Virus record (IMG/VR): IMGVR_UViG_3300048590_000800
Location: 1 to 22,272 of that record
Direction: 5' to 3' (one strand)
DNA from: a virus
DNA: 22,272 nt
Each line of letters begins with the position of its first letter. Within the stretch, counting starts at the first letter, position 1. Position numbers and translations under genes: made by a program. The notes below the pieces were generated by a model, which was not told the DNA's origin, searched no databases, and saw only the letters and a program-made list of their open reading frames with translations. Shown piece after piece: positions 4,604 to 22,272 of this stretch.

Positions 4604-4693
4604 TCAGTTGACGCCGTAGGCGCGCAGCGAATGAACCACCGGGCGCGACAGCGCCCAGCCAGCCAGAACAACAGCAACGGTCATCAGGATCAT
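4604..4693 (-). CDS. 29-aa single-span membrane microprotein
   Basis: Starts with MILMTVAVVLAGWALS, a hydrophobic span of about 16-18 residues, followed by a short basic tail ending at an Asn. A GGAG ribosome site lies 7-8 nt before the ATG. It is the first gene after the 4755-4782 promoter and ends 10 nt before the next start. Phages use such microproteins for superinfection exclusion or to modulate membrane complexes, but no function can be assigned here. Confidence 0.55.
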   Translation of the reverse strand: MILMTVAVVLAGWALSRPVVHSLRAYGVN

Positions 4694-4754
4694 GGTCTAA
4701 CTCCAGCCTGCAGAACCCCGAGGCGCGGGTGCCGGAAGATCCGGCGATGTGTTT

Positions 4755-4782
4755 AATATACGCCGTTATAAAAATAACGCAA
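4755..4782 (-). promoter_or_regulatory. Leftward promoter with palindromic operator
   Basis: On the minus strand: -35 TTGCGT, 16-bp spacer, -10 TATATT. The palindrome CGTTATAAAAATAACG (4764-4779, 6-bp arms) fills the spacer and touches the -35 box, an arrangement expected of a repressor site. The leader to the 29-aa gene would be about 55 nt. This is a local AT-rich patch in a GC-rich region. Confidence 0.6.
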
Positions 4783-5007
4783 GCCCCCGCGCGCGATTTT
4801 TCGCAACGGAATGTCACGCAAGCGCCTCCCGCCTCCCGCACCCTCCCGCCATCGCTGCCGGCCTGCGCCCTCGAACACCGCCACCCCGGACCCCGGGACG
4901 CGATCTTGGGGGCCGAAATTCAGCAGGGAGGGCAGGGGCAGGCGCGCAAACCCGTGGAACTGCCCCGCGCCGGACACCTAAGCCATTGATCCCCTAAGAA
5001 AATGTTG

Positions 5008-5309
5008 TCCACGTTTTGTTGCGAAACTTCCACGGTTTGCCCCTCGCACTTCCACGGTTTGCGCCAAAACTTCCACATGGACACTTTCCCGATTCCACCC
5101 TGTTCTTCTTCTTTAGATGATTGATTTAGAGAGAGAAACAGTGAGGAAGGCGGGGCGAGAGCAGTTCCACTGCTTGAAACAACCGATTGAATCCGACTTC
5201 CACGTTTTCAAACCCCCTTCCACGGGAAAACGTGGAAGTCGTGGAGGCGCAGTTTTCTTGTGCGATCAATGGCTTATGTGTACGGTGCGGGGCACTTCCA
5301 CGGTTCCAC
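5008..5309. repeat. Phased TCCAC motif array, possible attP arm sites or iterons
   Basis: TCCAC, often within ACTTCCACGG, occurs on the + strand at 5008, 5029, 5051, 5072 and 5094, then at 5166, 5199, 5219, 5297 and 5305, and inverted (GTGGA) at 5232 and 5241. The first five are spaced 21, 22, 21 and 22 bp, two helical turns apart, so bound proteins would line up on one face. A repeat-free AT-rich gap (about 5100-5160) splits the array in two. It lies directly before the tyrosine recombinase gene, as an attP with arm and core sites would. The 4783-5000 stretch just upstream shows nothing clear beyond C-rich repeats. Confidence 0.6.
5195..5240. repeat. 15-bp perfect inverted repeat
   Basis: The arm GACTTCCACGTTTTC (5195-5209) is repeated as its exact reverse complement at 5226-5240 around a 16-nt loop that itself holds one more TCCAC. 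It lacks a T-run, so it is more likely a protein-binding or recombination site than a terminator. Confidence 0.7.
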
Positions 5310-5316
5310 ACGGGAA

Positions 5317-6390
5317 ATGCCTGTGCCCCCCCTGAGCGAGCTGTTGCGCACCTGGTGCGACCACCTGCAACACAACCGCGGCCGCGCTGTCGCGACGGTC
5401 GAGAAGTACCGTCAGGCCATCGAGCGGCTGGCCGCCTGGTGCGCGAACCCGCCGGCCGAACCGCACCTGCGCCCGTCGACGCCCGACCCGCTCAAGCTGA
5501 CGCCGGCTGACCTCAACACCTTCTGCGGTCCGTTCGCGCACTCGACCGGCCTGGGCGCGCGTGCACGCCGCCCCCTGGTCGCAGCGGTGCGCGGCTTCTA
5601 TCGCCACGCGTTTGGCCAGCGCACCCCAGCCGAGAAACTGGAATATCCGAGCAGCGGCCGCCCGCTGCCAACCCCCATGACCCTGGGCAATGCCGAGCGC
5701 ATGCTGTCGTCGTGCGATGTGGCCACGCTGGCCGGCCTGCGCGACGCCGCCATCCTCGGCCTTTTCCTGGGCTGCGGGCTGCGACTGTCCGGGCTGTGTG
5801 CCCTCAATGAATCCGCCCTGGTGTGGACCGAGATTGCCGACCGCGAGCGCCTGCTGCTGCGCGTGCGCGAGAAAGGGGACCGCGAGCGCGTGCTGCCCGT
5901 GCCCGTCGAAGCCACCATGCTGCTGCGCGCTTACCTTGCGCACCCCGAGCTGCGCGACATCGATCGCAACACCGCCAGCGGTGACCGCGTGCTGTTCGTC
6001 AGCTTCCGCAACCGCCAGGTGCCACCGCACGATTACCACGGTGAAGCCAGGCGCATCGCCACCCGCAGCGTCTACGACATGATCTTGCGCCGCGGCCAGT
6101 CGCTGAACATCCCGCGCGACCAGATCCACCCGCACGCACTGCGCCATCTGTTCGGGACCGAGCTCGCCGAGTCCGACATCGATCTACTGCAGCGCCAGGC
6201 CCTCATGGGACACGCTGACCCGAAGAGCACCGAGATCTACACGCACCTCGCATCCCGAAAGCTCGCGCAGTCCGTCGACCGAGCCGCGCCGCTGTCGAAA
6301 ATGCGCGGCGCCTTGCTCGACACCCTGCGCGCCACGGATCGGGAAATGCTGAAGGCCAAGCGCCCGCGCGTTCACCCGCCCGACGTTTAG
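5317..6390 (+). CDS. Tyrosine recombinase / phage integrase (XerC/D-like)
   Basis: A 357-aa site-specific recombinase with an N-terminal SAM-like DNA-binding domain (about 1-115) and a C-terminal catalytic domain. The active site is complete: Arg156 in CGLRLSGL, Lys186 in REKGD, His273 and Arg276 in HPHALRH, His299 in MGHAD and Tyr308 in IYTH. It would cut and rejoin attP and attB through a 3'-phosphotyrosine. The ATG at 5317 (MPVPPL) was preferred; a GTG at 5260 in the same frame would add 19 residues that overlap the TCCAC repeats. It lacks features that mark integron integrases. The repeat array just upstream is its likely DNA partner. Confidence 0.9.
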   Translation: MPVPPLSELLRTWCDHLQHNRGRAVATVEKYRQAIERLAAWCANPPAEPHLRPSTPDPLKLTPADLNTFCGPFAHSTGLGARARRPLVAAVRGFYRHAFGQRTPAEKLEYPSSGRPLPTPMTLGNAERMLSSCDVATLAGLRDAAILGLFLGCGLRLSGLCALNESALVWTEIADRERLLLRVREKGDRERVLPVPVEATMLLRAYLAHPELRDIDRNTASGDRVLFVSFRNRQVPPHDYHGEARRIATRSVYDMILRRGQSLNIPRDQIHPHALRHLFGTELAESDIDLLQRQALMGHADPKSTEIYTHLASRKLAQSVDRAAPLSKMRGALLDTLRATDREMLKAKRPRVHPPDV

Positions 6391-6512
6391 AACTCGTATT
6401 GCTCCGGCCTGCCTCACCCTTGAAGACTGTGTTTGTAGGTGGGTGCAGCGGTTCCAGAAACTCACCCTAAAAACGGCCTAAATCGCCAGACGTTCAGAAC
6501 TGCGCGTTGCTC
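6382..6512 (+). repeat. Imperfect direct repeats after the integrase
   Basis: A 23-bp segment over the integrase stop (6382-6404, GACGTT..AGAACT..TTGCTC) recurs with a few changes at 6489-6512. The second copy overlaps a 7-bp inverted repeat ACTGCGC/GCGCAGT (6499-6525). The 6391-6569 stretch holds no other gene I can support. Confidence 0.45.
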
Positions 6513-6569
6513 ACAAAAGCGCAGTCCCATGGATCCCACCACCAGCCACGCCAACGGGTTGCAGACCGT

Positions 6570-7079
6570 ATGCACACACAAACACGCAGTTCATCCGCAG
6601 GAATCAATGCCGCACCGCCTGATTCGATCCCGTGCGACTCCACCCATGACCGCACCCCGGGGGCTCGGCGACCAGGCGCCCGACCGTCGACCCCGGGGGG
6701 CGGGTACCTCAACATCTGCACTGCTTTTGAAGCTGCCGTAGGCAGCGCGGCGCGCGCGCCGGCCGACCCGCGCATCGACGAGCTGCGCCGGATGAGCCTG
6801 CCGCGCGTCTGGCTGCGCGTGGCCGAAGCGATCGGCTACGAGACGTTCATGGACCTGTGGCGCGTGCTCTGTTCCGACGAATCGGTCCAGAACGACCGCC
6901 AGCGCGTGCGCGTGCCGTTGTTCTCGAAATACACCCGGTACCAGCGCAACCAGGTGATCCGGCGTCTGCACGAGGAAGGGCAAACGCCGAACGCGATCCG
7001 CCGCTACATTGCGCGGGCGACCGGCGAACGCCTGTGCAAAAGCACCGTGCTGACCGTGCTGAGGATCAAGGGCGAATGA
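6570..7079 (+). CDS. HTH protein coupled to the serine recombinase (possibly Mor-like)
   Basis: The well-formed part is the last ~100 residues: an N-terminal helical unit (LPRVWLRVAEAIG, then FMDLW), a linker with RVRVPLF, and a helix-turn-helix from RNQVIRRLHEEG to STVLTVLR. This order recalls the Mor/C transcription activators of Mu-like phages, but the match is by eye. The start is uncertain: ATG at 6570 gives 169 aa with a Pro/Arg/Ser-rich N-terminus, and ATG 6792 would give a short form; neither has a strong ribosome site. The stop overlaps the recombinase ATG (ATGA), so it may serve as a directionality or regulatory partner. Confidence 0.55.
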   Translation: MHTQTRSSSAGINAAPPDSIPCDSTHDRTPGARRPGARPSTPGGGYLNICTAFEAAVGSAARAPADPRIDELRRMSLPRVWLRVAEAIGYETFMDLWRVLCSDESVQNDRQRVRVPLFSKYTRYQRNQVIRRLHEEGQTPNAIRRYIARATGERLCKSTVLTVLRIKGE

Positions 7080-8707
7080 AGACCGCTGTCATCTATGCGC
7101 GCGTCAGCGACCGCAAGCAGGCCGAGGAAGACGTGTCGGTACCGTCTCAGGTCGACGCGGCGCGCGCGAAGGCGGAAGAGCTTGGCGCGACGGTGCTGCG
7201 CGTCTTCACCGACGACGGCCGTAGTGGGTACCGCGAAGCCTCGCGCCCCGGCTTCGATGCCGCGATGGACTTGGCCGTGACCTATCCGGCGACGCACTTC
7301 ATCGTCTGGTCCAGCTCGCGCTTTGCGCGCAACCGCGTCGACGCGACGCTGCGCAAGGTCGAGCTCGACAAGGCCGGCGTGCAGCTGGTCTACATCACGA
7401 CACCGATCGACCGGAACACCGACAGCGGCTTCATCCTCGACAGCGTGATGGAGATGGTCGACGAGCTGCGTTCACGGCAGATCGGCGCCGACACGCGCCG
7501 ATCGATGATCAGCAACGCGCGTGCCGGCTTCTTCTGTGGCGGCGTGCCGCCGTTCGGGTATCGGTCGGCCCCGTCGCCGGATAATCCGAAGCGCCGGGTG
7601 CTGGTGGTCGACGACTACGAGGCCGGCCTGGTGCGCGAGATCTTCGCGATGCGCTTGAAGGGGCTCGGAGGCAAGGGAATCGCCGCTGCATTGAACGCAC
7701 GCGGTGAACTGAACCGCGGTGCGCGTTGGAGCACGACCACGGTGCTGTCGCTGCTGCGTGCCGAGTCTGTGATCGGCCAGACCGTGTTCAACCGGAAGAA
7801 TCGCAAGACGATGCGGCTCAACCCGCGAGATACGTGGCTGATGATCCAGAGCCATGCGGCCATCGTCGACGCCGACACATGGTCCGCCGTGCAGTCGATG
7901 ATCGATGCCGCGGCCGACCGCTGCACGCACGGGTCGCCGAACAGCACGCACGCCTTCACCGGCATCTTGCGCTGTGGCCGCTGCGGCGCAGGCATGCAGA
8001 TCGAGACGGCGAAGGGGCGCAGCGCGCGCTACAGCTACTACAACTGCCGCAACGCGATGCGCGCGTCCGGCTGCGAGAACCGACGCCTGCCCGCGCCGGC
8101 CGTCGACAGCTACCTGATCGACGTGATCATGGACCGCGTGTTGAGCCCGGCGAACCTGCGAGACGTGGTGCAGAGCATCGAAGCCGAATACGGCCGCGCG
8201 GCGGCGAACCGGAACCGCGAGCGCGGTGCGCTGTTGCAACGCCTGCGAGAGATCCAGGCCCGCAACTCGAAGCTCTACGACGTGCTCGAACTGTACGGCC
8301 GCGACGCACCGAATCTGGCCGACCTGACGCAACGCATGCGGGACAACAACGCCGCGATCAAGGCCATCGAGCAACAGGTCCGGGCGCTCGACGAGCGCGT
8401 GGATCCGGAACTGACGATCGACGCAGGCTCGGTCGCATCACTCGGCGACTACCTGCGCGAGCTGCTGAAGACCGAGGCGAATGCCGCGAGGGCGAGGGCG
8501 TTTTTCGGTGGGTTCATCCGCGGCATCGTGGCTCACGCGGACCGGTTCACTATCGAATACGACACCGCGAAACTGATCGCTGCTGCGTCGCCGGTTCATA
8601 GTGCGGAATACTGGCTCCCCGAGTCGTGCGTACTGAGAACCGTTGAAGTGCCGATGCTGCGAGGCCTGAGTGCGTCGCGGGGCGGGTTGCGGCTAGCGGC
8701 GGGGTGA
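7076..8707 (+). CDS. Large serine recombinase
   Basis: A 543-aa serine integrase. The resolvase domain begins with IYARVSDRKQ, where Ser11 is the nucleophile, and continues with the Arg motif SSSRFARNRVD (about 79-89). The recombinase domain follows (about 150-270). A zinc ribbon is formed by Cys300, Cys303, Cys324 and Cys333, then a charged coiled coil (about 370-460) and a C-terminal tail. These enzymes integrate phages through attP/attB with double-strand cuts and a 5'-phosphoserine. The start is fixed by the ATGA overlap with the HTH gene. It ends by overlapping the oppositely oriented repressor by 15 bp. A complete tyrosine integrase lies just upstream, which is unusual. Confidence 0.93.
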   Translation: MKTAVIYARVSDRKQAEEDVSVPSQVDAARAKAEELGATVLRVFTDDGRSGYREASRPGFDAAMDLAVTYPATHFIVWSSSRFARNRVDATLRKVELDKAGVQLVYITTPIDRNTDSGFILDSVMEMVDELRSRQIGADTRRSMISNARAGFFCGGVPPFGYRSAPSPDNPKRRVLVVDDYEAGLVREIFAMRLKGLGGKGIAAALNARGELNRGARWSTTTVLSLLRAESVIGQTVFNRKNRKTMRLNPRDTWLMIQSHAAIVDADTWSAVQSMIDAAADRCTHGSPNSTHAFTGILRCGRCGAGMQIETAKGRSARYSYYNCRNAMRASGCENRRLPAPAVDSYLIDVIMDRVLSPANLRDVVQSIEAEYGRAAANRNRERGALLQRLREIQARNSKLYDVLELYGRDAPNLADLTQRMRDNNAAIKAIEQQVRALDERVDPELTIDAGSVASLGDYLRELLKTEANAARARAFFGGFIRGIVAHADRFTIEYDTAKLIAAASPVHSAEYWLPESCVLRTVEVPMLRGLSASRGGLRLAAG

Positions 8708-9451
8708 GACCAGCCCGGTCAGCATGTTGATCACCGTCGTGCGCTCGCCGTCGGTGAGTTTGTCGATCAGGTCATTGATGCGCTGGGCGTCCGATCGGTA
8801 GCTCGGGCCGGGGTCACGGACCTCGTGCACCAGTGCGGCACTGGGCCAGAGCCGTTCGACCTCGATGCGCACGTCGCGCATGCCCCATTCGGTCGGGTTC
8901 GGTCGCCACGGCGGGAACTCGCCGGCTTTCCAGCCGCAGAACTTCGCCGGACCCATCTCTCCCGCGACCAGGGCGTCCAGGTCGGTGGCGCTCATTCGGC
9001 GCAAAAAAATTCTGTCGCGACAGTAATCAGCGAGGAATTCCACTTCCTTGCGGCCGATAAATCTTGACCAGGTTTCGATGCAGGCGAAGGTCTTGCCGAT
9101 GTAGGTGGAGGTCAGATTCGCACTTTGTGCCACCACAGTCGCACGCAGTCCATCCGTGACCAGGATCGCTTCGGCCTCTTCAAAAACCATGTCCCAGTCG
9201 TCGATGATCGCTTCCGCGCTCGCGGCGGGCCGCGTGTTGAATGGCTTGCCGTAGCCGCAGACCAGCCAGGAGAGGCTGACGCCCTCGATCTCCGAAATCG
9301 GAGCCAGGGTTTCCGCGGTCGGCAGGAAGCCCTTGGCCATGCGCGCGAGCGTGCCCGTGCTGATCTTCAGCGCCGCGCCCCATGGGTAGAACTTGCGGCC
9401 GGCCAGCAATTGCTTCAGCCGATCCTCGAATCCGGTGATCTTCGTGCCCAT
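8693..9451 (-). CDS. CI-like phage repressor without a visible peptidase domain
   Basis: A 252-aa protein. Residues 7-71 resemble the CI-repressor helix-turn-helix domain: FEDRLKQLLAG, a helix pair around ISTGTLARMAKG, and a conserved SWLVCGYG ending. The rest does not show the Ser/Lys layout of LexA/CI self-cleaving peptidases, so SOS-type autocleavage is not expected and release from lysogeny may need another signal. The far C-terminus has a helical segment (DLIDKLTDGERTTVINMLTGLV) that could support oligomers. It is divergent from the promoter at 9466 and the ribbon-helix-helix gene, the usual immunity-switch layout. Confidence 0.8.
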   Translation of the reverse strand: MGTKITGFEDRLKQLLAGRKFYPWGAALKISTGTLARMAKGFLPTAETLAPISEIEGVSLSWLVCGYGKPFNTRPAASAEAIIDDWDMVFEEAEAILVTDGLRATVVAQSANLTSTYIGKTFACIETWSRFIGRKEVEFLADYCRDRIFLRRMSATDLDALVAGEMGPAKFCGWKAGEFPPWRPNPTEWGMRDVRIEVERLWPSAALVHEVRDPGPSYRSDAQRINDLIDKLTDGERTTVINMLTGLVSPRR

Positions 9452-9465
9452 TTTCAGAGAGCCCC

Positions 9466-9494
9466 TTGACGACGGCTCCGTCCGTGGATATTGT
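9466..9494 (+). promoter_or_regulatory. Strong rightward promoter with operator-like palindrome
   Basis: TTGACG, a 17-bp spacer and TATTGT form a near-consensus sigma-70 promoter pointing away from the repressor gene. The palindrome GACGGCTCCGTC (9471-9482) overlaps the -35 box and spacer, a likely repressor site. It would start transcripts near 9501 for the gene at 9539 and perhaps the early operon. Confidence 0.7.
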
Positions 9495-9538
9495 CTGACC
9501 CGGTATGCTCTATTATGAGCAACGCGGAGCGATTAGGA

Positions 9539-9724
9539 ATGAAACAAGCGAGTGTAACGCGCAGTCACCGGGACGAATCGTCGAGCCTGTCGCGGCTGAC
9601 GATCTGCCTGCCGCGCGACCTGAGCGCGCGCATCAAACAGGACGCTACCGTCGAGCGCCGCTCGACCAGCAGCCAGGTGGTGCACCTGATCGAGCGCGCG
9701 CTCAAAGGCAGGCGAAAAGCCTGA
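9539..9724 (+). CDS. Ribbon-helix-helix (Arc-like) regulator, Cro position
   Basis: A 61-aa protein. The core LTICLPRDLSARIKQ is a strand plus first helix, followed by a turn (ERRSTSS) and second helix (QVVHLIERALKG), the Arc/MetJ pattern in full. The ATG at 9539 was chosen because GGAG lies 10 nt upstream and the predicted transcript begins near 9501; a TTG at 9491 lies within the -10 box and is ruled out. Its place opposite the repressor is that of Cro in lambdoid phages, so it probably represses immunity or early promoters as a dimer. Confidence 0.8.
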   Translation: MKQASVTRSHRDESSSLSRLTICLPRDLSARIKQDATVERRSTSSQVVHLIERALKGRRKA

Positions 9725-9733
9725 AAAGAAAAA

Positions 9734-9765
9734 GCCCCGCGACCGGTTGCAGCCGGGCGTGGGGC
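9734..9765 (-). terminator. Intrinsic terminator for leftward transcription
   Basis: An 8-bp GC stem with one G-U pair (GCCCCGCG / CGTGGGGC) and an inner CCGG stem is flanked on its left by an A-rich run (9724-9733), which reads as a U-run on the minus strand. It would stop leftward RNA before the RHH gene and repressor, and may act weakly rightward. The rest of 9766-9881 is a leader with no clear -35/-10 pair. Confidence 0.65.
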
Positions 9766-9881
9766 GGGTCGGGGGTCATAACGGTTACGAGCCAGTCCTA
9801 ACACCCGCGTGCAGTATATCGACACGCACACCGTAGTGGCCCCTGTTTTCTCAGTCACGAGAGTAACGGGGTGTAGTTCAC

Positions 9882-13318: not shown

Positions 13319-16060
13319 ATGGCATCGATTCAAGAACTCAAGCGGCTGATCGACCTGCACGATCTGGCCGACAAACTCGGCCTCGAACGGCCGGGCGGGC
13401 AGGGCAATTACCGCTCGCCGCACCACAAGGACAAGAACCCGTCGTTGAGCGTGTTCAGTGACGGCAAGGCATGGAAGGACCACAGCGGCGAAGCGGGTGG
13501 CGACTGCATCAGCTTCGTGCAGTTCGTCGAGAACCTGCCCGACGTGCCCAGCGCGATGCGTCGCCTGCACGAGCTGTACAACCTGCCGAACGACAAGCCC
13601 GCCGCCGACGCACCGCGGCGTGAGCGCAGCCGCGAAGAATTCATCGCGGACCAGTGCCTGGCCAAGCGTTCGGGCGCTTTCGAATACCTGAAAGGCCGCG
13701 GCATCGCCGAAGCGGCCCTGATCTACGCGGCCGAACGCGGCACGCTGGGCTTCAACGACTGGACGAAGCCAGGCATGGAGCCCGGCGGCTTCGGCTACGG
13801 CGGCCCGGCCGCGGCCTTCATCACCCGCGATCTGCAGACCGGCGAAGCGCTGGCCGTCGACTTCCGCTATCTGGATCCGTCGCTCAATGGTGGCGTGAAG
13901 ACCAAGACGGTCGGCCCCAAGGACGGCGTGCCCTGGTTCGCCTGCGCGCGCCGGGTGAAGGCCGCCGACACCATCTACATCGTCGAGAGTTCGATCAATG
14001 CGCTCTGCATCGAGTCGCTGAACCTCTACAAGTCGGCCGCCGTGGCCATTCGTGGCGCGAGCAACTGGCAGACCATCGACTGGCGCTTCCTGATCGGCAA
14101 GCAGGCGGTGCTCGTGCTCGATGCCGACCTGCCGAACGAGAAGGGCGAGCGCCCCGGCGCGAAGGCCGCCTGGGGCCTGTATGACCTGCTGACCGGGCTC
14201 AATGTGGCCACCGTCATGGTCGACCAGGCGAGCTGGTACGCCGACGAAGTGAACGACGTGGCGGACATCGCCAAGAAGTTCGGCCTGGACAACCTGAAAG
14301 AACGCCTGCAGACCATAGAACCGTGGTGTATTCCCGGCCTGGTCGGCAAGGACGGCCCCGGCGGCAAACAGCGCGTGTACCTGCCGGCGCACGACTTCGC
14401 CGTGTACTGGCGTTACCGCGCGAAGAACGACTTCACGACCTTCGTCAGCAAGGTCGAGAAGGACGGCGACGACGGCGGCGAAACGCTCAAGTTCGAAGAC
14501 CTGTGCGGTTTCCGCATCGCGAGCATCACGCGCGTGACGATCGCGGGCGCCACCAGCACGATGTCCGGTGAAACCGACGACCAGCCCGAGACACAATTTG
14601 CCGTGTCGGTTCAGACCCCGCGTCACGGCGGCAAGCTGATCCGCCGCGTCTACGAAGACGACAAGCTGCACAACACCGACCAGTGGAAGAAGTTCGGCCC
14701 GATCTTCAACCAGTCGAAGTTCCTGCGCCTGGTCAACATCCTCGAACGCACCGCGCACTGCGGCGCGCGCGATGCGGTGAACTTCGTCGGCCTGTGCTGG
14801 CGCAACGGCCGCCTCGTGGTCAACGAAGGCCCGGACTGCTACTTCCGCGAGCCCGAGAAACAGTGCCCGTACAACCTGCTGACCTTCCCCAGCGGCCCGC
14901 GTGCCGACGCGCGCCGGGTGATCGAGGCCTACCAAACCACGTTCAAGGACAACGCCGCGGCCATCATGCTGGTGTGGGCGTTGGGCGGCCACCTGAAAGC
15001 CTTCCTCGGATTCTGGCCGCACCTGATCTGCCAGGCCGCCAAGGGCAGCGGCAAGAGCACGCTGATCAAGCGCCTGGAGCGCAGCATCGGCATGACGATG
15101 TTCTCGGGCCAGTCGTTGCAAACCGAATTCCGCCAGCTCACGACCGTCAGCTACACCAGCCACCCGGTGGGCTGGGAAGAGCTGAGTGCGCGCAAGCAGG
15201 AGATCATCGACAAGGCCGTCGCGATGCTGCAGGAGTGCTACCAGTACACGCCGACCAAGCGCGGCAGCGACATGCTGCCCTACCTGTTGTGCGCGCCCGT
15301 GCTGCTGGCCGGCGAAGACGTGCCGGTGCGCAGCCTGCTCGGCAAGGTGGTGCAGACCGACCTGACGAAGCGCAAGGGGCCGAAGATGCCGGAAGGCCTG
15401 CCGCGCTTCCCGGTGCGCCCGTTCATGGAATACCTGACCACGCTCACGCGCGAAGGCGTCGTCGAGACGATGGAGAAAGCCGCGGCGTGGCTGCGCCAGG
15501 GATCGCGATCACCCGACGACAGCGAAGGCGCGCAGCGTGCGGTGCTGAACTTCGCGGCCGTGCTCACCGCCTGGAAGCTGCTCGCCGACTTCGCCGGCAT
15601 GGAAGTGCGCGCCGGCAGCTTCATGGAAGACCTGCGCGCGCAGATGAACGCCTTTATCCGCGACACCGAGGGCGAGCGCCAGCCCTTCGTCTGGATCATG
15701 GAGATCGTGGCCAGCGAGATCGAGTCGAAACAGTTCCTGCACCCCTACGAGTTCGACGAGATCGACGGCGAGGACTGCATCATCTTCCGGCCGCAACACG
15801 CGATGGACCACATCAGCAGCACCGGCCGCCTGCGCGAGCACTGGAACGGCCTGCCGGTGAAGAGTGGCCGCGTGTTCAAGCAGCAGCTGGCCGGCGCGGG
15901 CGTGATCGTGAAAGACGAGCTGGACCGCCGCATCCACCAGCGCCGCCACGCCCACCTGAGCGCCATCAGCCTCAAGAAGCTCGCCGGCTTCGGCGTCTAC
16001 CTCTCCCAGCCCGAACCCGACTACCAACAGCCGCCGCTGCGCGCTGCGGCCAACTCGTGA
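13319..16060 (+). CDS. Phage primase-helicase
   Basis: A 913-aa replication protein with both activities on one chain. The N-terminus (to about 75) resembles a DnaG-type zinc domain (SPHHKDKNPSLSV and GDCISF), but most metal-binding Cys are missing, so zinc binding may be lost. A Toprim domain shows a Glu in IYIVESS (about 223) and the DxD of LVLDAD (about 265-270). The C-terminal helicase part has a Walker A (AAKGSGKST, about 574-582) and a Walker B-like VGWEEL. It would prime and unwind phage DNA at the fork. It is the largest gene of the early operon; its stop overlaps the next GTG. Confidence 0.9.
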   Translation: MASIQELKRLIDLHDLADKLGLERPGGQGNYRSPHHKDKNPSLSVFSDGKAWKDHSGEAGGDCISFVQFVENLPDVPSAMRRLHELYNLPNDKPAADAPRRERSREEFIADQCLAKRSGAFEYLKGRGIAEAALIYAAERGTLGFNDWTKPGMEPGGFGYGGPAAAFITRDLQTGEALAVDFRYLDPSLNGGVKTKTVGPKDGVPWFACARRVKAADTIYIVESSINALCIESLNLYKSAAVAIRGASNWQTIDWRFLIGKQAVLVLDADLPNEKGERPGAKAAWGLYDLLTGLNVATVMVDQASWYADEVNDVADIAKKFGLDNLKERLQTIEPWCIPGLVGKDGPGGKQRVYLPAHDFAVYWRYRAKNDFTTFVSKVEKDGDDGGETLKFEDLCGFRIASITRVTIAGATSTMSGETDDQPETQFAVSVQTPRHGGKLIRRVYEDDKLHNTDQWKKFGPIFNQSKFLRLVNILERTAHCGARDAVNFVGLCWRNGRLVVNEGPDCYFREPEKQCPYNLLTFPSGPRADARRVIEAYQTTFKDNAAAIMLVWALGGHLKAFLGFWPHLICQAAKGSGKSTLIKRLERSIGMTMFSGQSLQTEFRQLTTVSYTSHPVGWEELSARKQEIIDKAVAMLQECYQYTPTKRGSDMLPYLLCAPVLLAGEDVPVRSLLGKVVQTDLTKRKGPKMPEGLPRFPVRPFMEYLTTLTREGVVETMEKAAAWLRQGSRSPDDSEGAQRAVLNFAAVLTAWKLLADFAGMEVRAGSFMEDLRAQMNAFIRDTEGERQPFVWIMEIVASEIESKQFLHPYEFDEIDGEDCIIFRPQHAMDHISSTGRLREHWNGLPVKSGRVFKQQLAGAGVIVKDELDRRIHQRRHAHLSAISLKKLAGFGVYLSQPEPDYQQPPLRAAANS

Positions 16061-16230: not shown

Positions 16231-16587
16231 ATGAAGAAGCGTTACAAGCTGGAAGCCGGCATGGATACCAGCATCACCCTGGACATCGACACCGAAGTCA
16301 TCACCGAAGCACTAGCGCGCGAGATCAACGGATTCTGGACCAGCGCCGAGGATGTGCTCGAAGAGTCCGGTGGCGACGTATTCCAGGCTGCAGCGCGCCG
16401 CGCCGCGGGGGAGCTGATCGGGTTTCTGTTCGATGGCTTCACCACTGATGGCGCAGTGTCGGAGCTGAGCGAGAGCGAAGGCTGGCCCCCAGACGAAGTG
16501 CTGACGGGCATCCGCATCGTGGACCACGACCTGCCTGAGTTCGGATCTCTGGATTTCACCGTCACCACGATCGAGGTGGGAGCCTGA
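16231..16587 (+). CDS. DUF2528-like phage protein
   Basis: A 118-aa acidic protein starting MKKRYKLEAG with a GAGGA ribosome site. The pattern TLDIDTEVITEALAREING, FW, a Gly-Gly-Asp-Val segment, and later EGWPPDEVLTGIRIVDHD matches what I recall of DUF2528, found in proteobacterial prophages and plasmids with no known activity. It lies 18 nt after the previous gene and is followed at once by a 68-aa gene, a pair often seen together in early operons. Confidence 0.65.
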   Translation: MKKRYKLEAGMDTSITLDIDTEVITEALAREINGFWTSAEDVLEESGGDVFQAAARRAAGELIGFLFDGFTTDGAVSELSESEGWPPDEVLTGIRIVDHDLPEFGSLDFTVTTIEVGA

Positions 16588-16588
16588 A

Positions 16589-16795
16589 ATGCTGACCGCA
16601 GCGATTGCCTTGGATAACTGGAAATTCCCGATCTTCGAGCGCCACCTGCACCAGGCGGGCTATTCGTTCAATCGATCGGAAGGCCTGACCGCCAACACGA
16701 TGATTTTGTCGGTCACGACTGAAAACCTTGTGGCACTGAGTGAAGTGGTGCGAGCCGCGAACACCGAGGCCGCGCTGGCAAAGGAGGGTGCGTGA
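16589..16795 (+). CDS. Unknown 68-aa phage protein (last clear early gene)
   Basis: Begins MLTAAIALDNWKFPIFERHL and ends in an Ala/Glu-rich helix (SEVVRAANTEAA). It looks like a conserved small phage protein of the type that follows DUF2528 genes, with no known role. It starts 1 nt after the DUF2528 stop, and its own stop overlaps the next ATG. This is the last gene before signs of the cassette array begin. Confidence 0.65.
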   Translation: MLTAAIALDNWKFPIFERHLHQAGYSFNRSEGLTANTMILSVTTENLVALSEVVRAANTEAALAKEGA

Positions 16796-16881: not shown

Positions 16882-16933
16882 AGAATATTGGCAGGACGTG
16901 CCGCTTTACAGCGAAAGCGATGTTGCGGTCTAA
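16850..16933 (+). CDS. 27-aa ORF ending in attC1, remnant of the first cassette
   Basis: Encodes an acidic peptide with EDWIKHEEYWQDV. Its stop (TAA) sits inside the GTCTAAC box of attC1, as is typical of cassette genes. The frame is open upstream to 16796, so it may be the 3' end of a longer cassette gene whose front was lost; no GTTAGACC cassette start is present upstream. An alternative reading from ATG 16878 behind GGAGG also ends in attC1. Confidence 0.4.
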   Translation: MMIPEDWIKHEEYWQDVPLYSESDVAV

Positions 16934-17014
16934 CGGTTGAGTTAACTGGTGCCGCCGATGATGCCCGGTGTGCGACTAGAACGAAGCGGCATCCAGTTGA
17001 ACGAATTGTTAGCT
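16928..17014 (+). other. attC1 recombination site
   Basis: GTCTAAC (16928-16934) and GTTAGCT (17008-17014) are the outer boxes. The arms GTTAACTGGTGCCGC and GCGGCATCCAGTTGAAC pair fully except for two unpaired bases on one side, the extrahelical bases typical of folded attC. At 87 bp it is among the longer sites of the array. Confidence 0.85.
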
Positions 17015-17035
17015 GGCTAACTACACGGAGGCGAT

Positions 17036-17260
17036 ATGCGAACAAGAAACCACGATTGGTTCGATAGCGTGAAGGCGGTTCCGGTCTATGGCGTGCAGGT
17101 ATTCCATGACGGGAAGTGGTGCCACGCGGCGATCAACGGGAAACCAATTTTTTGCGACACGCCGGAGGAACGCGCAGAGCAGCGCAAGCGGTTGAAGCGG
17201 CTCTTGGCTGCGCAAGGCAAGGTGCCAGCTAACACCCGAGCTGTGCAGCCCGCGCCCTGA
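17036..17260 (+). CDS. Cassette A: unknown 74-aa protein
   Basis: Preceded by a GGAGG ribosome site 5 nt before the ATG. It has aromatic and Gly residues in the first half (NHDWFDSVKAVPVYGVQVFHDGKW), then CDTPEERAEQRKRLKRLLA, a basic helix. The C-terminus runs into attC2 and stops there. No family is recognised. It is the first clearly complete cassette, so it would be the best expressed if transcription enters from the early operon. Confidence 0.7.
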   Translation: MRTRNHDWFDSVKAVPVYGVQVFHDGKWCHAAINGKPIFCDTPEERAEQRKRLKRLLAAQGKVPANTRAVQPAP

Positions 17261-17316
17261 GTGCGCGGACATGCGAAACCGGACGTGCGCGGGTCTGCAC
17301 GAGCGAATAGTTAGAT
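17227..17316 (+). other. attC2 recombination site
   Basis: Boxes AGCTAAC (17227-17233) and GTTAGAT (17310-17316). The inner arms GTGCAGCCCGCGC and GCGCGGGTCTGCAC pair with one extrahelical base. The R box matches the start of cassette A (GTTAGCTGG), not that of the next cassette. Length 90 bp. Confidence 0.85.
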
Positions 17317-17328
17317 TGCGGAGGCGAC

Positions 17329-17619
17329 ATGATTGGATTTTGGATGGAAAACGGAATGCGGCCCGGCAGGCATGTGCTCGTAGATCTCGGGCCGACGCGC
17401 GAGGCCGAACAGCGATTTCTTGCGATGCGCGCACACCTCTCGCCGCGCAACTTCGAGCGCGTTGGCAATGACCGCCTCGTCGCTCGCGTGCCTCCGACGA
17501 AGGTAGGCTCGGTGCTTGCCGCCCTGCCTCAGATCCAAGCGGGTCAGGCCGACTACTGCTGGTGCACGCACGGATGGGTGGATGAGCAATCTAACGCTGG
17601 AATTCAGGCGCGGCCGTAG
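17329..17619 (+). CDS. Cassette B: unknown 96-aa protein
   Basis: GGAGG precedes the ATG by 4 nt. The sequence shows MIGFWMENG, GRHVLVDLGPTREAEQRFLAM and a C-terminal part with DYCWCTHGW that could hold a metal or disulfide. Its last residues (SNAGIQARP) are encoded by attC3. No family is recognised. Confidence 0.7.
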   Translation: MIGFWMENGMRPGRHVLVDLGPTREAEQRFLAMRAHLSPRNFERVGNDRLVARVPPTKVGSVLAALPQIQAGQADYCWCTHGWVDEQSNAGIQARP

Positions 17620-17646
17620 GCCGTCGCCTGGAATGACGTGTTAGGC
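17589..17646 (+). other. attC3 recombination site
   Basis: A compact 58-bp site: ATCTAAC (17589-17595) and GTTAGGC (17640-17646), with arms AATTCAGGCG and CGCCTGGAAT pairing around one extrahelical base and a GGCCGTAGGCC-type centre. Its R box and upstream bases (GCAATCTAAC) match the start of cassette B (GTTAGATTGC) over 10 bp. Confidence 0.9.
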
Positions 17647-17668
17647 GGCACTTTTGACGGAGCGATGA

Positions 17669-18001
17669 ATGCAGCAAGTGACAAAAGACATGATCGACTG
17701 CTGGCGCGCGAACTACGGGCTAGACAAGCGGAGCCCGGAGGACGCCGCGCGCTGGTGGGACGACGAATGCGGCATGGCTCCGGCCGGTGCGGTTGCGGCC
17801 CTTGGGCTGGCGCTGCGAGAGCTTGAAGCTCGGACAAGCCGCGATGCCGATTGGTACATGGCTGTCGTTTGGCCGTTGCTGCCAGTGCCCGGCGAGTTCG
17901 ACGGCATGGATGCGTGCGATCAATCGCGCTGGCGCAGCGTGGTTCGTATTGCTATTGAGCACACTCTTGCTGGTGAAAGAGGCATGACGCCTAACACATA
18001 A
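17669..18001 (+). CDS. Cassette C: unknown 110-aa protein
   Basis: Rich in Trp, Asp and Ala (CWRANYGLDKRSPEDAARWW; DADWYMAVVWPLL; CDQSRWRSVV), probably a helical soluble protein. It ends MTPNT with the stop inside attC4. The ribosome site is weaker (GGAG) than in neighbouring cassettes. No family is recognised. Confidence 0.65.
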   Translation: MQQVTKDMIDCWRANYGLDKRSPEDAARWWDDECGMAPAGAVAALGLALRELEARTSRDADWYMAVVWPLLPVPGEFDGMDACDQSRWRSVVRIAIEHTLAGERGMTPNT

Positions 18002-18044
18002 GTTCAGCGGCGGCGCAGCCGTCCGCTGCAACGCATAGTTAGCC
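17989..18044 (+). other. attC4 recombination site
   Basis: A 56-bp site: GCCTAAC (17989-17995) and GTTAGCC (18038-18044), arms GTTCAGCGG and CCGCTGCAAC with one extrahelical base, and a CGGCGCAGCCG centre. It is the most classical attC here. Its R box matches the start of cassette C (GTTAGGCG). Confidence 0.92.
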
Positions 18045-18073
18045 GTCGAGCGACGGCGTGTAAGGAGTACCAA

Positions 18074-18322
18074 ATGAGCAAGGCTCAAGAAATTTTCGAT
18101 GCGGCTTTTGCGATACCTCGCGACCCGCGCAGTGATGAATACCGACACGGTGTGCTCGAAATTCTGAAGTATAGGCTGCGCGAAACAAACCAAACATTCG
18201 GGAAAAAACAATACGTGATGGGATCTCCCCAAGCCGATGCCTATTACGCAGGTTGCGATGAAGGGCACCGCTTGGCTTCCAAATACATCGCAAGCCTTGT
18301 AGGCGATGGCAGCGACGGCTAA
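18074..18322 (+). CDS. Cassette D, first gene: unknown 82-aa protein
   Basis: AAGGAG lies before the ATG. The protein has AQEIFDAAFAIPRDPRSDEY, then RETNQTFGKKQY and a YYAGCDEGHRLASKY segment like small phage proteins with a Y/FxxG motif. The codons are visibly richer in A and T than in the phage core, which suggests another source. The stop lies in GGCTAAG, a remnant of its own lost attC. Confidence 0.7.
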   Translation: MSKAQEIFDAAFAIPRDPRSDEYRHGVLEILKYRLRETNQTFGKKQYVMGSPQADAYYAGCDEGHRLASKYIASLVGDGSDG

Positions 18323-18332
18323 GGAGAAGATG

Positions 18333-18650
18333 ATGGACGAAAAAGAACTGCAAGACGCGCACGAACAGGCGCAAGCACCGCTGTGTAACCCAGCGCACCA
18401 AGTCTATTTCCGCGCTGGGCTGATTGCCTGCCGCGAGTACATGGCTCGCTTCGTCGAGGCCCAAGATCCCGCGATTGCGCAGAGCATTCGTGCGAACTGG
18501 TGGCCGGCGCTTGGTGACGATCCGGGCGCGCCAAGGCTGCTGAATTGGGACGAGGTCGCGAACGGTGGTGAGGATGGCCCTTGGACACCAAAAGAGGTTT
18601 CGCCGTCAGTCGAGGCGTTGCCGCTGGCGGCGATGTTCTTGAAGGCATAA
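18333..18650 (+). CDS. Cassette D, second gene: unknown 105-aa protein
   Basis: ATG 18333 was chosen over 18330 because AAGGAG then stands at a normal 6-nt distance. Features: HQVYFRAGLIACREYMARFVE, a pattern common in small phage early proteins, then NWWPALGDD and a Pro/Glu-rich end. It follows the first D gene with no attC between. The stop sits in the GCATAAC box of the collapsed attC5. Confidence 0.7.
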   Translation: MDEKELQDAHEQAQAPLCNPAHQVYFRAGLIACREYMARFVEAQDPAIAQSIRANWWPALGDDPGAPRLLNWDEVANGGEDGPWTPKEVSPSVEALPLAAMFLKA

Positions 18651-18663
18651 CACAGCGTTAAGC
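18645..18663 (+). other. attC5, collapsed site
   Basis: Only GCATAAC, five bases and GTTAAGC remain; the paired middle is gone. It marks a cassette border but probably can no longer fold into an active site. Confidence 0.6.
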
Positions 18664-18687
18664 GGCCACGGGCCGAAGGAGTAAGAC

Positions 18688-18927
18688 ATGGCGACAGCCT
18701 CTCCCTGTGGTCCGCTTGAACCCATAGTTCGGGGGCAGCGCGACAAGCTCCAAGAGGGCGTTTACTGGACCGTGATGCAGAACTGGGACGGGAAACTCTG
18801 GCCCCGGCTATGGCCGAACGAGAAGTGGGCATGGCGCGAGTTGGAGCGCGAAACAGGGCTCGCTCGGGCGCAGATCAAGAAGCGGTGCGACTGGACTTTG
18901 GTTCGGGTTGCGCTGACCCGAGTATGA
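18688..18927 (+). CDS. Cassette E: unknown 79-aa protein
   Basis: AAGGAG lies upstream. It is Trp-rich (YWTVMQNWDGKLWPRLW; KWAWRELERETG) with a basic C-terminus (RAQIKKRCDW). No family is recognised. Its stop lies just before the GCCGAAC box of attC6. Confidence 0.65.
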   Translation: MATASPCGPLEPIVRGQRDKLQEGVYWTVMQNWDGKLWPRLWPNEKWAWRELERETGLARAQIKKRCDWTLVRVALTRV

Positions 18928-18928
18928 C

Positions 18929-18986
18929 GCCGAACACCGGCAATAACCCGCGAGCGTAGCGAGTCGGGTTGATTGGCTAGTTATGC
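18929..18986 (+). other. attC6 recombination site
   Basis: A 58-bp site: GCCGAAC (18929-18935) and GTTATGC (18980-18986). Arms CAATAACCCG and CGGGTTGATTG pair with an extrahelical base. The outer box deviates by one base from the RYYYAAC consensus. It closely resembles attC7. Confidence 0.8.
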
Positions 18987-19005
18987 CGAACCTACGGAGA
19001 ACGAA

Positions 19006-19263
19006 ATGGGAACCGACACAGACACCTTGATCGGAGTTGCGCAGGCGCTGGAACAAAAGCGCGCGTTGGCGATCGTCGCTGACATTGCCGCAATGGGCGA
19101 CTTCTTCACGGGCAGCGAAGCATTCCGCGCAGGATGGGATTCGGCGTGCGAGGAAATTACAGAGCGATTGCGCACCGAGGTTTGGGCAGGATGCCTGCCG
19201 CCGATTGATGCGGCAAAGACGATAGAAGCCAATGCCGGGCCGTGCCCGGAGATCAAGGCATAA
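19006..19263 (+). CDS. Cassette F: unknown 85-aa protein
   Basis: GGAGA precedes the ATG. The sequence is acidic and helical, with GSEAFRAGWDSACEEITERL, a FxxGWxxA...EI..RL pattern seen in many small phage proteins of unknown role. The stop falls within GCATAAC of attC7. Confidence 0.7.
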   Translation: MGTDTDTLIGVAQALEQKRALAIVADIAAMGDFFTGSEAFRAGWDSACEEITERLRTEVWAGCLPPIDAAKTIEANAGPCPEIKA

Positions 19264-19314
19264 CACCGGCAATGAGCCGCGCCGGTAGGCGTCGGCTCGA
19301 TTGGATGGTTATGC
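19258..19314 (+). other. attC7 recombination site
   Basis: A 57-bp site: GCATAAC (19258-19264) and GTTATGC (19308-19314), arms CAATGAGCCG and CGGCTCGATTG with an extrahelical base. Its R box matches the start of cassette F (GTTATGCC). Confidence 0.88.
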
Positions 19315-19346
19315 CGCTGCGACACGACAACATACGGAGAATGAAG

Positions 19347-19931
19347 ATGGGCAGAGAAATCCGCAAAGTACCGCCGAACTGGCAGCCGCCGAAGATTGAG
19401 CGACCGAACCATCGCCGCGGCCAGATGGAAGAACGCGACCAACCGATGTTCGACCGCGCCTTTGCGCCAGCGATGCGCGAATGGATCGCCGAGTGGGAGA
19501 AGTGGGAGCGTGGGGAGCGCCCTGACTATTGCGACGATGAAGCATCGCGCTCACTTCCGTATTGGAAATGGGAGGGCGGACCGCCTGACCCGGAATACTA
19601 CAGGCCCGATTGGAAGCCGGAGGAAATGACATGGTTCCAACTGTACGAAACCGTCAGCGAGGGAACGCCGGTAACACCAGCCTTTGCTACGCGCGAGGAA
19701 TTGGTTGAATACCTTGTAGCCAACGGCGACTACTGGGACCAGAAACGCAGGGCCGAAGGCTGCTCGATCATGCGTTGCACACCTTGGCCTCGGGCAGAGG
19801 CTGAGTCTTTTGTGTTCGGCGCCGGGTGGGCGCCATCGATGATTGTGTCGGACGGGCGCGTGATGACAGGAACCGAAGGCATGGCCGCCTTGAGGCATAA
19901 CACATGCTCTCCGACGGATTTGCCGGGATAA
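19347..19931 (+). CDS. Cassette G: conserved phage-type 194-aa protein
   Basis: ATG 19347 has CGGAG at a proper distance; ATG 19341 is too close. The protein begins [12 protein letters not shown] and carries [31 protein letters not shown] and [13 protein letters not shown] recall this pattern as a widespread protein of proteobacterial phages and prophages with no known function. Finding it as an attC-bounded cassette is notable. Its last residues are translated from the half attC at 19895 and beyond, so the C-terminus differs from the usual end. Confidence 0.75.
19895..19901 (+). other. attC8, half site at the right end of the array
   Basis: GCATAAC matches the start of cassette G (GTTATGCC) as its own R box, but no GTTRRRY box follows before the tail gene. 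A GCCGGG/CCCGGC hairpin lies at about 19922-19939. The site is therefore truncated. Confidence 0.6.
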
Positions 19932-20074: not shown

Positions 20075-20437
20075 ATGACCGGTCCTGCCATCCATCACTT
20101 CGAAGGCCTGCAGCGTTGCGTGTGGGCGGGCATCACCTGGGAACGGGCGATGTGGCTGGACGACGACGTGACGGGCCGCGTGTCCTTCGTCGGCTGGGAC
20201 ATCACGATGGTGATCACCGGCGCCGACGACGCGCCGCTGCTGACCCTCGACACCGACACGGGCGGCATCACGCTGCACGACGCTGGCCTGCAGACCGAAT
20301 ACTTCCTGCCGCAGCTGACACCCGCGCAGGCGACCGCGCTGCCGGACGGCACGCACGAGTATCGGATCACGGCTTCGAACGGCACCGACGTGATGGGCCT
20401 GTTCGCCGGTCGCATCGAGAAACGGACGACGGTATGA
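20075..20437 (+). CDS. Phage tail-associated protein (BppU-like N-terminal domain type)
   Basis: A 120-aa beta-rich protein: [58 protein letters not shown] and GLFAGRI. This pattern is common in small phage proteins encoded just before collagen-like fibres and resembles the immunoglobulin-like BppU N-terminal fold, probably a baseplate or fibre-attachment element. Its stop overlaps the tailspike start (ATGA). The ribosome site is weak. Confidence 0.65.
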
Positions 20438-22272
20438 GCCTGCGCCTCTACATCCAGGAAGATCGCGTCATCGCCTACGCCGCGCCGATGGGCTTGCCGG
20501 GCGCGCGTGGTCCGCAGGGCGAGCAAGGTGTCCAGGGCGAGGTTGGGCCGCAGGGCATCCAGGGCATCCAAGGCGAGGTTGGGCCGCAAGGCCCGCAGGG
20601 CATTCAAGGTGATACCGGCCCCCAAGGCATCCAAGGCCCCACCGGCCCCGCAAACTCCCTCAGCATCGGCACCGTCACCACCGGCCTTTCCGCCTCGGCG
20701 ACGATCACCGGCACCGCGCCGACGCAGACGCTGAATCTGACGCTGCCGCACATCGGCGTTGTGCCAGAGGGATACGGCGCTGTCGGCGACGGAGTGACCG
20801 ACGACACGCTCGCGATCCGCGCCGCAATCACTGCCGCTGGCGCCAATGGGACGGTGTTGTTCACCGCGGGGAAGACCTACCTGTTGTCCGGGGCTTTGAC
20901 GCCACTGGAAGGCCAGACGTTCATCGGGTATGGCGCGACGTTGAAGCGAATTGCCGAGGTTGCGTCGAGCACGGCAACGGCTATCGGAACCGGCTCAGGT
21001 CCGACATCGATCACTGTCGCTGACGGCTCGCTGTTCAGCGTCGGGATGGATGTCACCGTCTACAACGGGGCCAGCTTCGATGCGTACTCGCATCGCATCT
21101 TGAGCATCGCGGGAAATGTGCTGAGCGTCGCAACGAACTTCGCCACAGCATTCCCAGCGGGCGGCACGGTGATCACTGCGTTCTCGCCGATCTACGCGTC
21201 AAGCATTGCCGGCATCAAGATCATCGGACTGGAGTTCGACGGCAATCGCGCGAACAACGCGACCCTGGCGAAGTGGCAGCTTCATTCGGCCGTAGTGCTG
21301 TATTCGGATCGGGGTGTTGTGCAGGACTGCTACGTGCACGACGAAGTGTCGGAAGGGCTCACGCTGGGTGGCGCAGGCGTGTCAGCCCGTAACAATTCGA
21401 TCACCGACTGCGGCGGTAACGGCATCCATTTCAGCGGTTGCGCCGGGGCAGAGGCATCAGGGAACTACATCAAGAACTGCAACATCCTCGGCACTGCACC
21501 GGGTCACACTGATGGCCTCATCTGTTTCAGCAACGCGACAGAATACACGCACATCGTCAACAACTACTTGGACACCGGGATCAGCGGCGTAGCGTCAATT
21601 GACTCTGACGACAACAGCAACGTCGTCATCACTGGCAACATCATCCGCAACTGCACTACGACGGCAATCGAGGGGACGTTCCCCGCGACGACAAAGGGCG
21701 GAAAGTGCACTGTCACCGGGAATCTGATCTACGACAGCATCAAGGTCGAAATCAATTTCACGCCGTCGTTCGCCGCGGGGAGTGGCCCATACGGATGGGT
21801 TGTCGCGAATAACTACTTGTCGAACACGAGTGTTATCGTAGCCAAGGGCTTTGGCATATCCGTGTCCGGAAACGTCATTTCGATGCCGTCAGACACCGTG
21901 AATGTCGCGGTCGCGGTGAGCGATTGCCAGCAAGTGACGATCGCTGGGAACCAGATTACTGGTGGCTTGAACGCGATCTACGTTTCAGGCGCGAATTGCG
22001 CGGCGATCAAGGTTTCAGGCAACACGCTGCTGAACAACTACCATCGCGGCGTGAACGTGAACAGCGATGTTACTGGTCGAGCGATCAGCTTCGACGGGAA
22101 CACCGTCATCGTGGAGTCTGGCTACACCACGAACGGCAGTTACAGCGGCATCAACGCACAGAACAACAGCGTCGTCACCAACAACGTGATGGATGTGCAG
22201 ACGACGAGCACGCAAGCGGCAATCGGATGCCCGAACGGGGCGGCCGGAGTGAACGGCGCGATCGTGACCGGC
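20434..22272 (+). CDS. Collagen-like tailspike with pectate-lyase beta-helix (3' partial)
   Basis: Open to the window end (613 codons, no stop). Residues 1-19 are a short conserved head ([19 protein letters not shown]). Residues 20-73 are 18 Gly-X-Y triplets that form a collagen-like trimer stalk. After a linker, [20 protein letters not shown] is the classic start of Pectate_lyase_3 right-handed beta-helix domains. The rest shows repeated N-N, V-x-G-N and I-x-G-N rungs typical of such helices in tailspikes that bind or cut surface polysaccharides. Gln in the Y positions and PQG/IQG repeats are usual in phage collagen. It is likely the receptor-binding depolymerase. Confidence 0.88.
20491..20652 (+). 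repeat. Collagen-like Gly-X-Y coding repeat
   Basis: Eighteen uninterrupted triplets. At DNA level, blocks such as GGCGAGGTTGGGCCGCA occur twice, and GGCATCCA recurs several times, so stalk length can change by slippage or recombination. Confidence 0.85.

Follow-up and report, generated by a model that had tools for sequence, protein, structure and literature searches.

An array of attC sites in a phage genome fragment, with cassette genes opposed to attC polarity

Here we describe a phage-borne array of seven attC sites, all on the minus strand, whose eight cassette open reading frames (ORFs) all lie on the plus strand, as does the phage early operon. The window, by which we mean the whole stretch of DNA analysed, is an entire virus record of 22,272 bases, itself incomplete. 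We consider it likely that the array is a phage-adapted set of cassettes (a CALIN) that is read through from the phage operon and served by an integrase in trans. The carriage of attC sites by phages is not new, and phage CALINs are already published (PMC9892861); what goes beyond these is the opposed polarity of sites and genes and the recurrence of that layout.

The array (16928-19901) sits between the primase side and the tail-fibre end of the window, with phage genes on both sides (Table 1), and the first-pass annotation, which had placed it within a phage genome between early and tail modules, was right about this setting. The left part of the window encodes lysis genes, regulators, two tyrosine recombinases, one large serine recombinase and a DNA primase, the relatives of which belong to phages and prophages of Beta- and Gammaproteobacteria. 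The protein p20075 on the right flank has no relative among the viral contigs, for which reason no empty site is demonstrable, both flanks occurring together in no relative; a DNA search of named phages with the whole region returned tail-fibre repeats only and nothing for the array. Homologues of the two tyrosine recombinases and the large serine recombinase that this one phage combines (5260-6390, 6857-8707 and 11747-12367) all recur in several relatives. Short TTCCACGGTTT/CCACGGGTTT repeats stand upstream of a tyrosine recombinase both in the window (5000-5310) and in the primase relative L040 (around 16450-16760), and this repeat region is a possible origin or regulatory region.

Table 1. 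Features of the array and its flanks, in window coordinates (CM R1, the covariance model described in the text).
Feature	Position	Strand	Evidence
Phage DNA primase, left flank, early module	13319-16060	+	phrog_5629, 1239.7 bits
68-aa gene, left edge of array	16589-16795	+	Homologue (64.5%) in intI phage L278
attC A, 87 bp	16928-17014	-	CM R1 52.4 bits, E 1e-10
c1, 74 aa	17036-17260	+	Frame +0 best coding; no family match
attC B, 90 bp	17227-17316	-	CM R1 41.1 bits
c2, 96 aa	17329-17619	+	Frame +0 best coding
attC C, 58 bp	17589-17646	-	CM R1 51.1 bits; 84% to attC in class 1 integron pABWA45_2
c3, 110 aa	17669-18001	+	Frame +0 best coding
attC D, 56 bp	17989-18044	-	CM R1 49.2 bits versus 14.5 on plus; 82% to dfrB2 attC, R388
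c4, 82 aa, related to early-region genes of other phages/prophages	18074-18322	+	45-49% to L112, L008/L084, L009
c5, 105 aa, common to Mu-like prophage cassette	18333-18650	+	78% DNA identity to G201
attC E, 89 bp, overlaps c6 start	18645-18733	-	CM R1 22.5 bits, E 0.0017
c6, 79 aa, start inside attC E	18688-18927	+	Frame +0 best coding
attC F, 58 bp	18929-18986	-	CM R1 30.9 bits; weak fold
c7, 85 aa	19006-19263	+	Frame +0 best coding
attC G, 57 bp	19258-19314	-	CM R1 43.4 bits
c8, 196 aa, runs through right-end core	19341-19931	+	Frame +0 best coding
Lone right-end core, GTTATGC (plus-strand reading GCATAAC)	19895-19901	-	Sequence and comparison with ends next to intI
Phage tail fibre/spike on the right flank, truncated where the record ends	20434-22272	+	PHROG tail families, Pfam Beta_helix and Collagen

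The sites were identified with a covariance model derived from attCs of Xanthomonadales chromosomal integrons, located through their intI genes, and of two plasmid class 1 integrons, all oriented along the cassette direction and with no phage sequence among them; it was used in place of a home-made attC scanner, which scored both strands equally and gave off-target matches. The model finds seven attCs between 16928 and 19314, all in the same orientation (best plus-strand score 14.5 bits), six with E values from 1e-10 to 1.6e-5 and one weaker (18645-18733, E 0.0017), with E values that rest on a short calibration. These are full-length matches to a directional model, with the R''/R' and L''/L' arms, extrahelical bases and hairpin of attC architecture, and the sites are 56-90 bp long, directly oriented and imperfect in their arms. 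A covariance-model check of the kind proposed by the first-pass annotation bears out its claim that the repeats are real attCs, and does so with a model built from bacterial attCs only. Run over 95 related phage loci (1.46 Mb), the same model gave E values below 1 in two alone, L040 (full record L153) and L033.

Five of the seven sites fold significantly better than their shuffled counterparts, beating nearly all shuffles, and those at 18645 and 18929 do not; as sites E and F are weak or poorly folding, part of the array may be decaying. Site E is an attC of 89 bp and not, as was once considered, a remnant of 22 bp. Several window sites are resembled by bacterial integron attCs (74-88% identity), two of which lie in class 1 integrons: the blastn partner of site C is the attC adjoining qacG2 on pABWA45_2 (84%), and site E is 74-77% identical to attCs of roughly 85-90 bp in several Xanthomonadales genomes. 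A search of 299 Xanthomonadales genomes gave matches to the array in 55, with sites C, D and E accounting for most of them; Rfam, which holds no attC family, gave no match.

The small ORFs separated by these sites have good ribosome sites, and codon use makes frame +0 the best of six in all eight, in agreement with the protein relatives of c4, which support the plus strand. Their codon use is less phage-like, and none has a significant match in Pfam, PHROG or PADLOC. In a canonical attC an extra base stands in the arm beside the end of the cassette gene, and genes follow the attC polarity. Here no ORF runs along the attC polarity as in a canonical bacterial cassette, and the mobile unit, in order of expression, is attC-ribosome site-ORF, whereas in bacteria it is ORF-attC. 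The initial reading had paired each attC with a small ORF and its own ribosome site, and had missed that the two are opposite in polarity.

No match to the integron integrase model TIGR02249 above its cut-off (265 bits) was found in this incomplete 22-kb record, whose two tyrosine recombinases score 57 bits and nothing at all. Seven attCs within 2.4 kb and no intI gene in the record make the array a CALIN and not a complete integron. That the array is without an integrase, as had been noted, is true of the record and not of its relatives L040 and L033, which have intI. At the right end, where the array had been extended to 19901, the last attC ends at 19314 and a lone core follows at 19895-19901. 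This core was considered as a degenerate attC and dropped; an attI-side core is possible, yet it is without GAATTTAAGTT, an attI motif that many intI phages have. Several of these phages have GAATTTAAGTT just upstream of intI and after it an RRRY that varies, which is what one would expect of an attI to which different first cassettes have been joined. No clear attI was found in the 22-kb record.

These missing elements, the weakness of sites E and F and the truncated look of the left-edge cassette would all fit a dead relic, that is, cassettes captured once and now decaying after recombination had ceased. Five sites with scores of 41-52 bits and well-formed folds, together with eight intact ORFs preceded by ribosome sites, argue against this, and we regard it as unlikely. 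The 68-aa gene at the left edge is possibly a decayed cassette gene, as its relative in the intI phage L278 directly follows an attC.

One cassette gene, c5, has a counterpart in the Xanthomonadales genome G201 (78% over 316 bases); the homology begins just within the start codon and extends as far as CATAACAC at the attC junction, where it breaks off. The counterpart lies within a Mu-like prophage, unrelated to the phage of the window, with transposase, major head, terminase and endolysin genes and with two attCs (62.4 and 51.2 bits) whose polarity is once more contrary to that of the ORFs; two IntI genes are found elsewhere in that genome.

In two primase relatives of the window, L040 and L033, the primase has a bona fide integron integrase as its neighbour (425.8 and 477.5 bits, respectively, for a cut-off of 265). 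Their attCs are on the minus strand, to the left of a plus-strand intI, and their cassettes are reversed, encoding a radical SAM protein and a C5 methyltransferase in L040 and carrying a methyltransferase-like and a PAPS-reductase-like gene in L033. A profile built on integrases of this type has relatives encoded in 146 viral stretches, not all of which are established as IntI. Among viral arrays with attCs found by the covariance model, 33 of 34 are mostly reversed (93 cassettes reversed, 3 in the same direction), whereas none of the ten bacterial arrays is (21 reversed, 93 in the same direction). The corresponding Fisher test (p = 1.7e-34) assumes that cassettes are independent of one another, which does not hold, and the count of arrays is the more reliable measure. 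Because the codon model had phage genes as its training set, the window's among them, bacterial strand calls are noisier; when only ORFs of 90 aa or more with a clear margin are counted, the reversed-to-same ratios are 61:1 in viral and 3:35 in bacterial arrays, where the bacterial controls are Xanthomonadales only and many of the viral records are fragments. In several viral cassettes the coding strand is fixed by domains (C5 and Dam methylases, PAPS reductase and exonuclease).

The published complete circular phage genome MW202573 has reversed attCs by the same model, and P12002L gave one weak match only (17.5 bits, E 0.12). From the published phage TJE1, which served as a control, the model recovered three attCs in canonical orientation; reversal is thus not universal in phages. 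In two further viral records, L265 and L214, attC and ORFs alike lie downstream of intI and share its strand, which is another way to cassette genes that are co-directional with the phage operon. A hallmark screen with two PHROG models found a terminase or portal in 13 of 38 intI records, and other terminase families were seen directly. In a tree of IntI proteins the viral members cluster (8 changes compared to 31.5 for shuffled labels), and as its bacterial sampling is mainly Xanthomonadales and class 1, we draw no origin from it; class 1 IntI1 (L147 and L148) branches among the viral IntIs in this limited-sample tree.

In many intI phages the integron seems to close the early operon, next to a presumed attachment-site region. 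The gene after intI resembles an ordinary phage tyrosine integrase by its sequence start in L261, L271, L304, L255, L251 and L298. In KX853513 (Virus Rctr41k, L311), an IntI-like gene is followed by small ORFs and a methyltransferase (4680-9824), with a weak attC match of 17 bits. Relatives without an array have repeated WSS/WVV-type domains after the primase and upstream of a reverse transcriptase detected by PADLOC (L037, 10451-13139; L005, 12918-15803). These reverse transcriptase regions resemble a diversity-generating retroelement, and in L005 one frame joins the start of the reverse transcriptase to a type II methyltransferase.

An assembly chimera, or a fragment of a host integron joined to phage DNA, might be suspected in a single metagenomic record with no near copy found and with cassette ORFs less phage-like in codon use, but is very unlikely given the phage genes on both sides, the reversal of the ORFs, unlike in host integrons, and a layout shared with independent phages, including the circular MW202573 and a chromosomal prophage. 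Small genes can be separated by hairpins that act as terminators or leader elements, yet it is highly improbable that these are phage terminators or regulatory repeats and not attC, as they match a directional attC model over its full length, share DNA identity with attCs of known integrons and border homology that ends at the core junction. Equally hard to sustain is an artefact of orientation, with the true genes on the minus strand and the cassettes canonical: the window's cassette ORFs are without domain matches and long antisense frames do arise in high-GC DNA, but frame +0 is best in every case, c4 has plus-strand protein homologues, ribosome sites precede the plus-strand ORFs, and in related arrays the ORFs that bear domains are likewise reversed.

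If the window holds a phage-adapted array, as we favour, its cassettes would owe their expression to phage-operon transcription that reads through the array and not to an integron Pc, and the recombining strand (bottom relative to attC) would be the plus strand. Cassettes may come and go through the action in trans of an IntI that a host integron, or an intI phage in the same host, provides; alternatively, they may have been acquired with the help of an intI that the phage no longer carries. In the phage layout attI would be the point of entry for new cassettes and would lie where the early operon ends downstream; of the genes arriving there, only those opposed to attC polarity would be sense to phage transcription, and cassettes of opposed polarity would be selected for and exchanged among phages.

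Integrons are bacterial gene-capture platforms with cassettes driven from Pc. On balance we lean, by a little, towards phages keeping an integron branch of their own, with resident intI lineages, an attI where the early operon ends and a shared pool of reversed cassettes, of which the window would be an intI-less member. In such a branch each gene would be preceded by an attC of opposing polarity, and the phage operon would thereby express the cassettes that insert at attI; cassettes for DNA methyltransferases, PAPS-reductase-like and radical-SAM proteins, as well as many unassigned ones, would move between unrelated phages. Phages would then run their own cassette exchange, probably for anti-restriction and other early functions, and a route would link the bacterial and phage cassette pools. 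The phage form predicts both strand choice and the direction of expression, and the array is a source of small phage genes to screen for counter-defence.

Among 10,705 phage genomes, Qi et al. 2023 (PMC9892861) found 3 complete integrons, 1 In0 and 17 CALINs, and IntI1 recombined phage attCs in their assay; with CALINs reported in 17 phages, the first-pass suggestion that such a class of phages might be undescribed does not stand. Those phages are like the window in having attC arrays mostly without intI, and methyltransferase genes are frequent in their arrays; unlike here, we found no mention there of opposed ORFs or of a recurrent locus with its own intI lineage. Papers on reversed orientation or on intI lineages at recurrent phage loci were not found in the open-licence literature, preprints excluded, which makes this weak evidence. 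The sedentary chromosomal integrons of Xanthomonadales share the attC sequence and structure type, with matches at sites C, D and E, but differ in that their ORFs mostly follow the attC polarity (93:21) and diverge from intI. Canonical integrons have oppositely directed Pint and Pc promoters, with cassettes read from Pc (PMC11551772). In Spirochaetota, IntI is reverse-oriented (PMC9668308), and there, as in the phage form, the usual opposition of intI and cassettes is broken; however, it is the integrase gene that is turned in Spirochaetota, whereas the window's relatives have a canonical intI/attC layout with the ORFs turned. The viral L265 and L214 look nearer to the turned-integrase layout of the Spirochaetota type.
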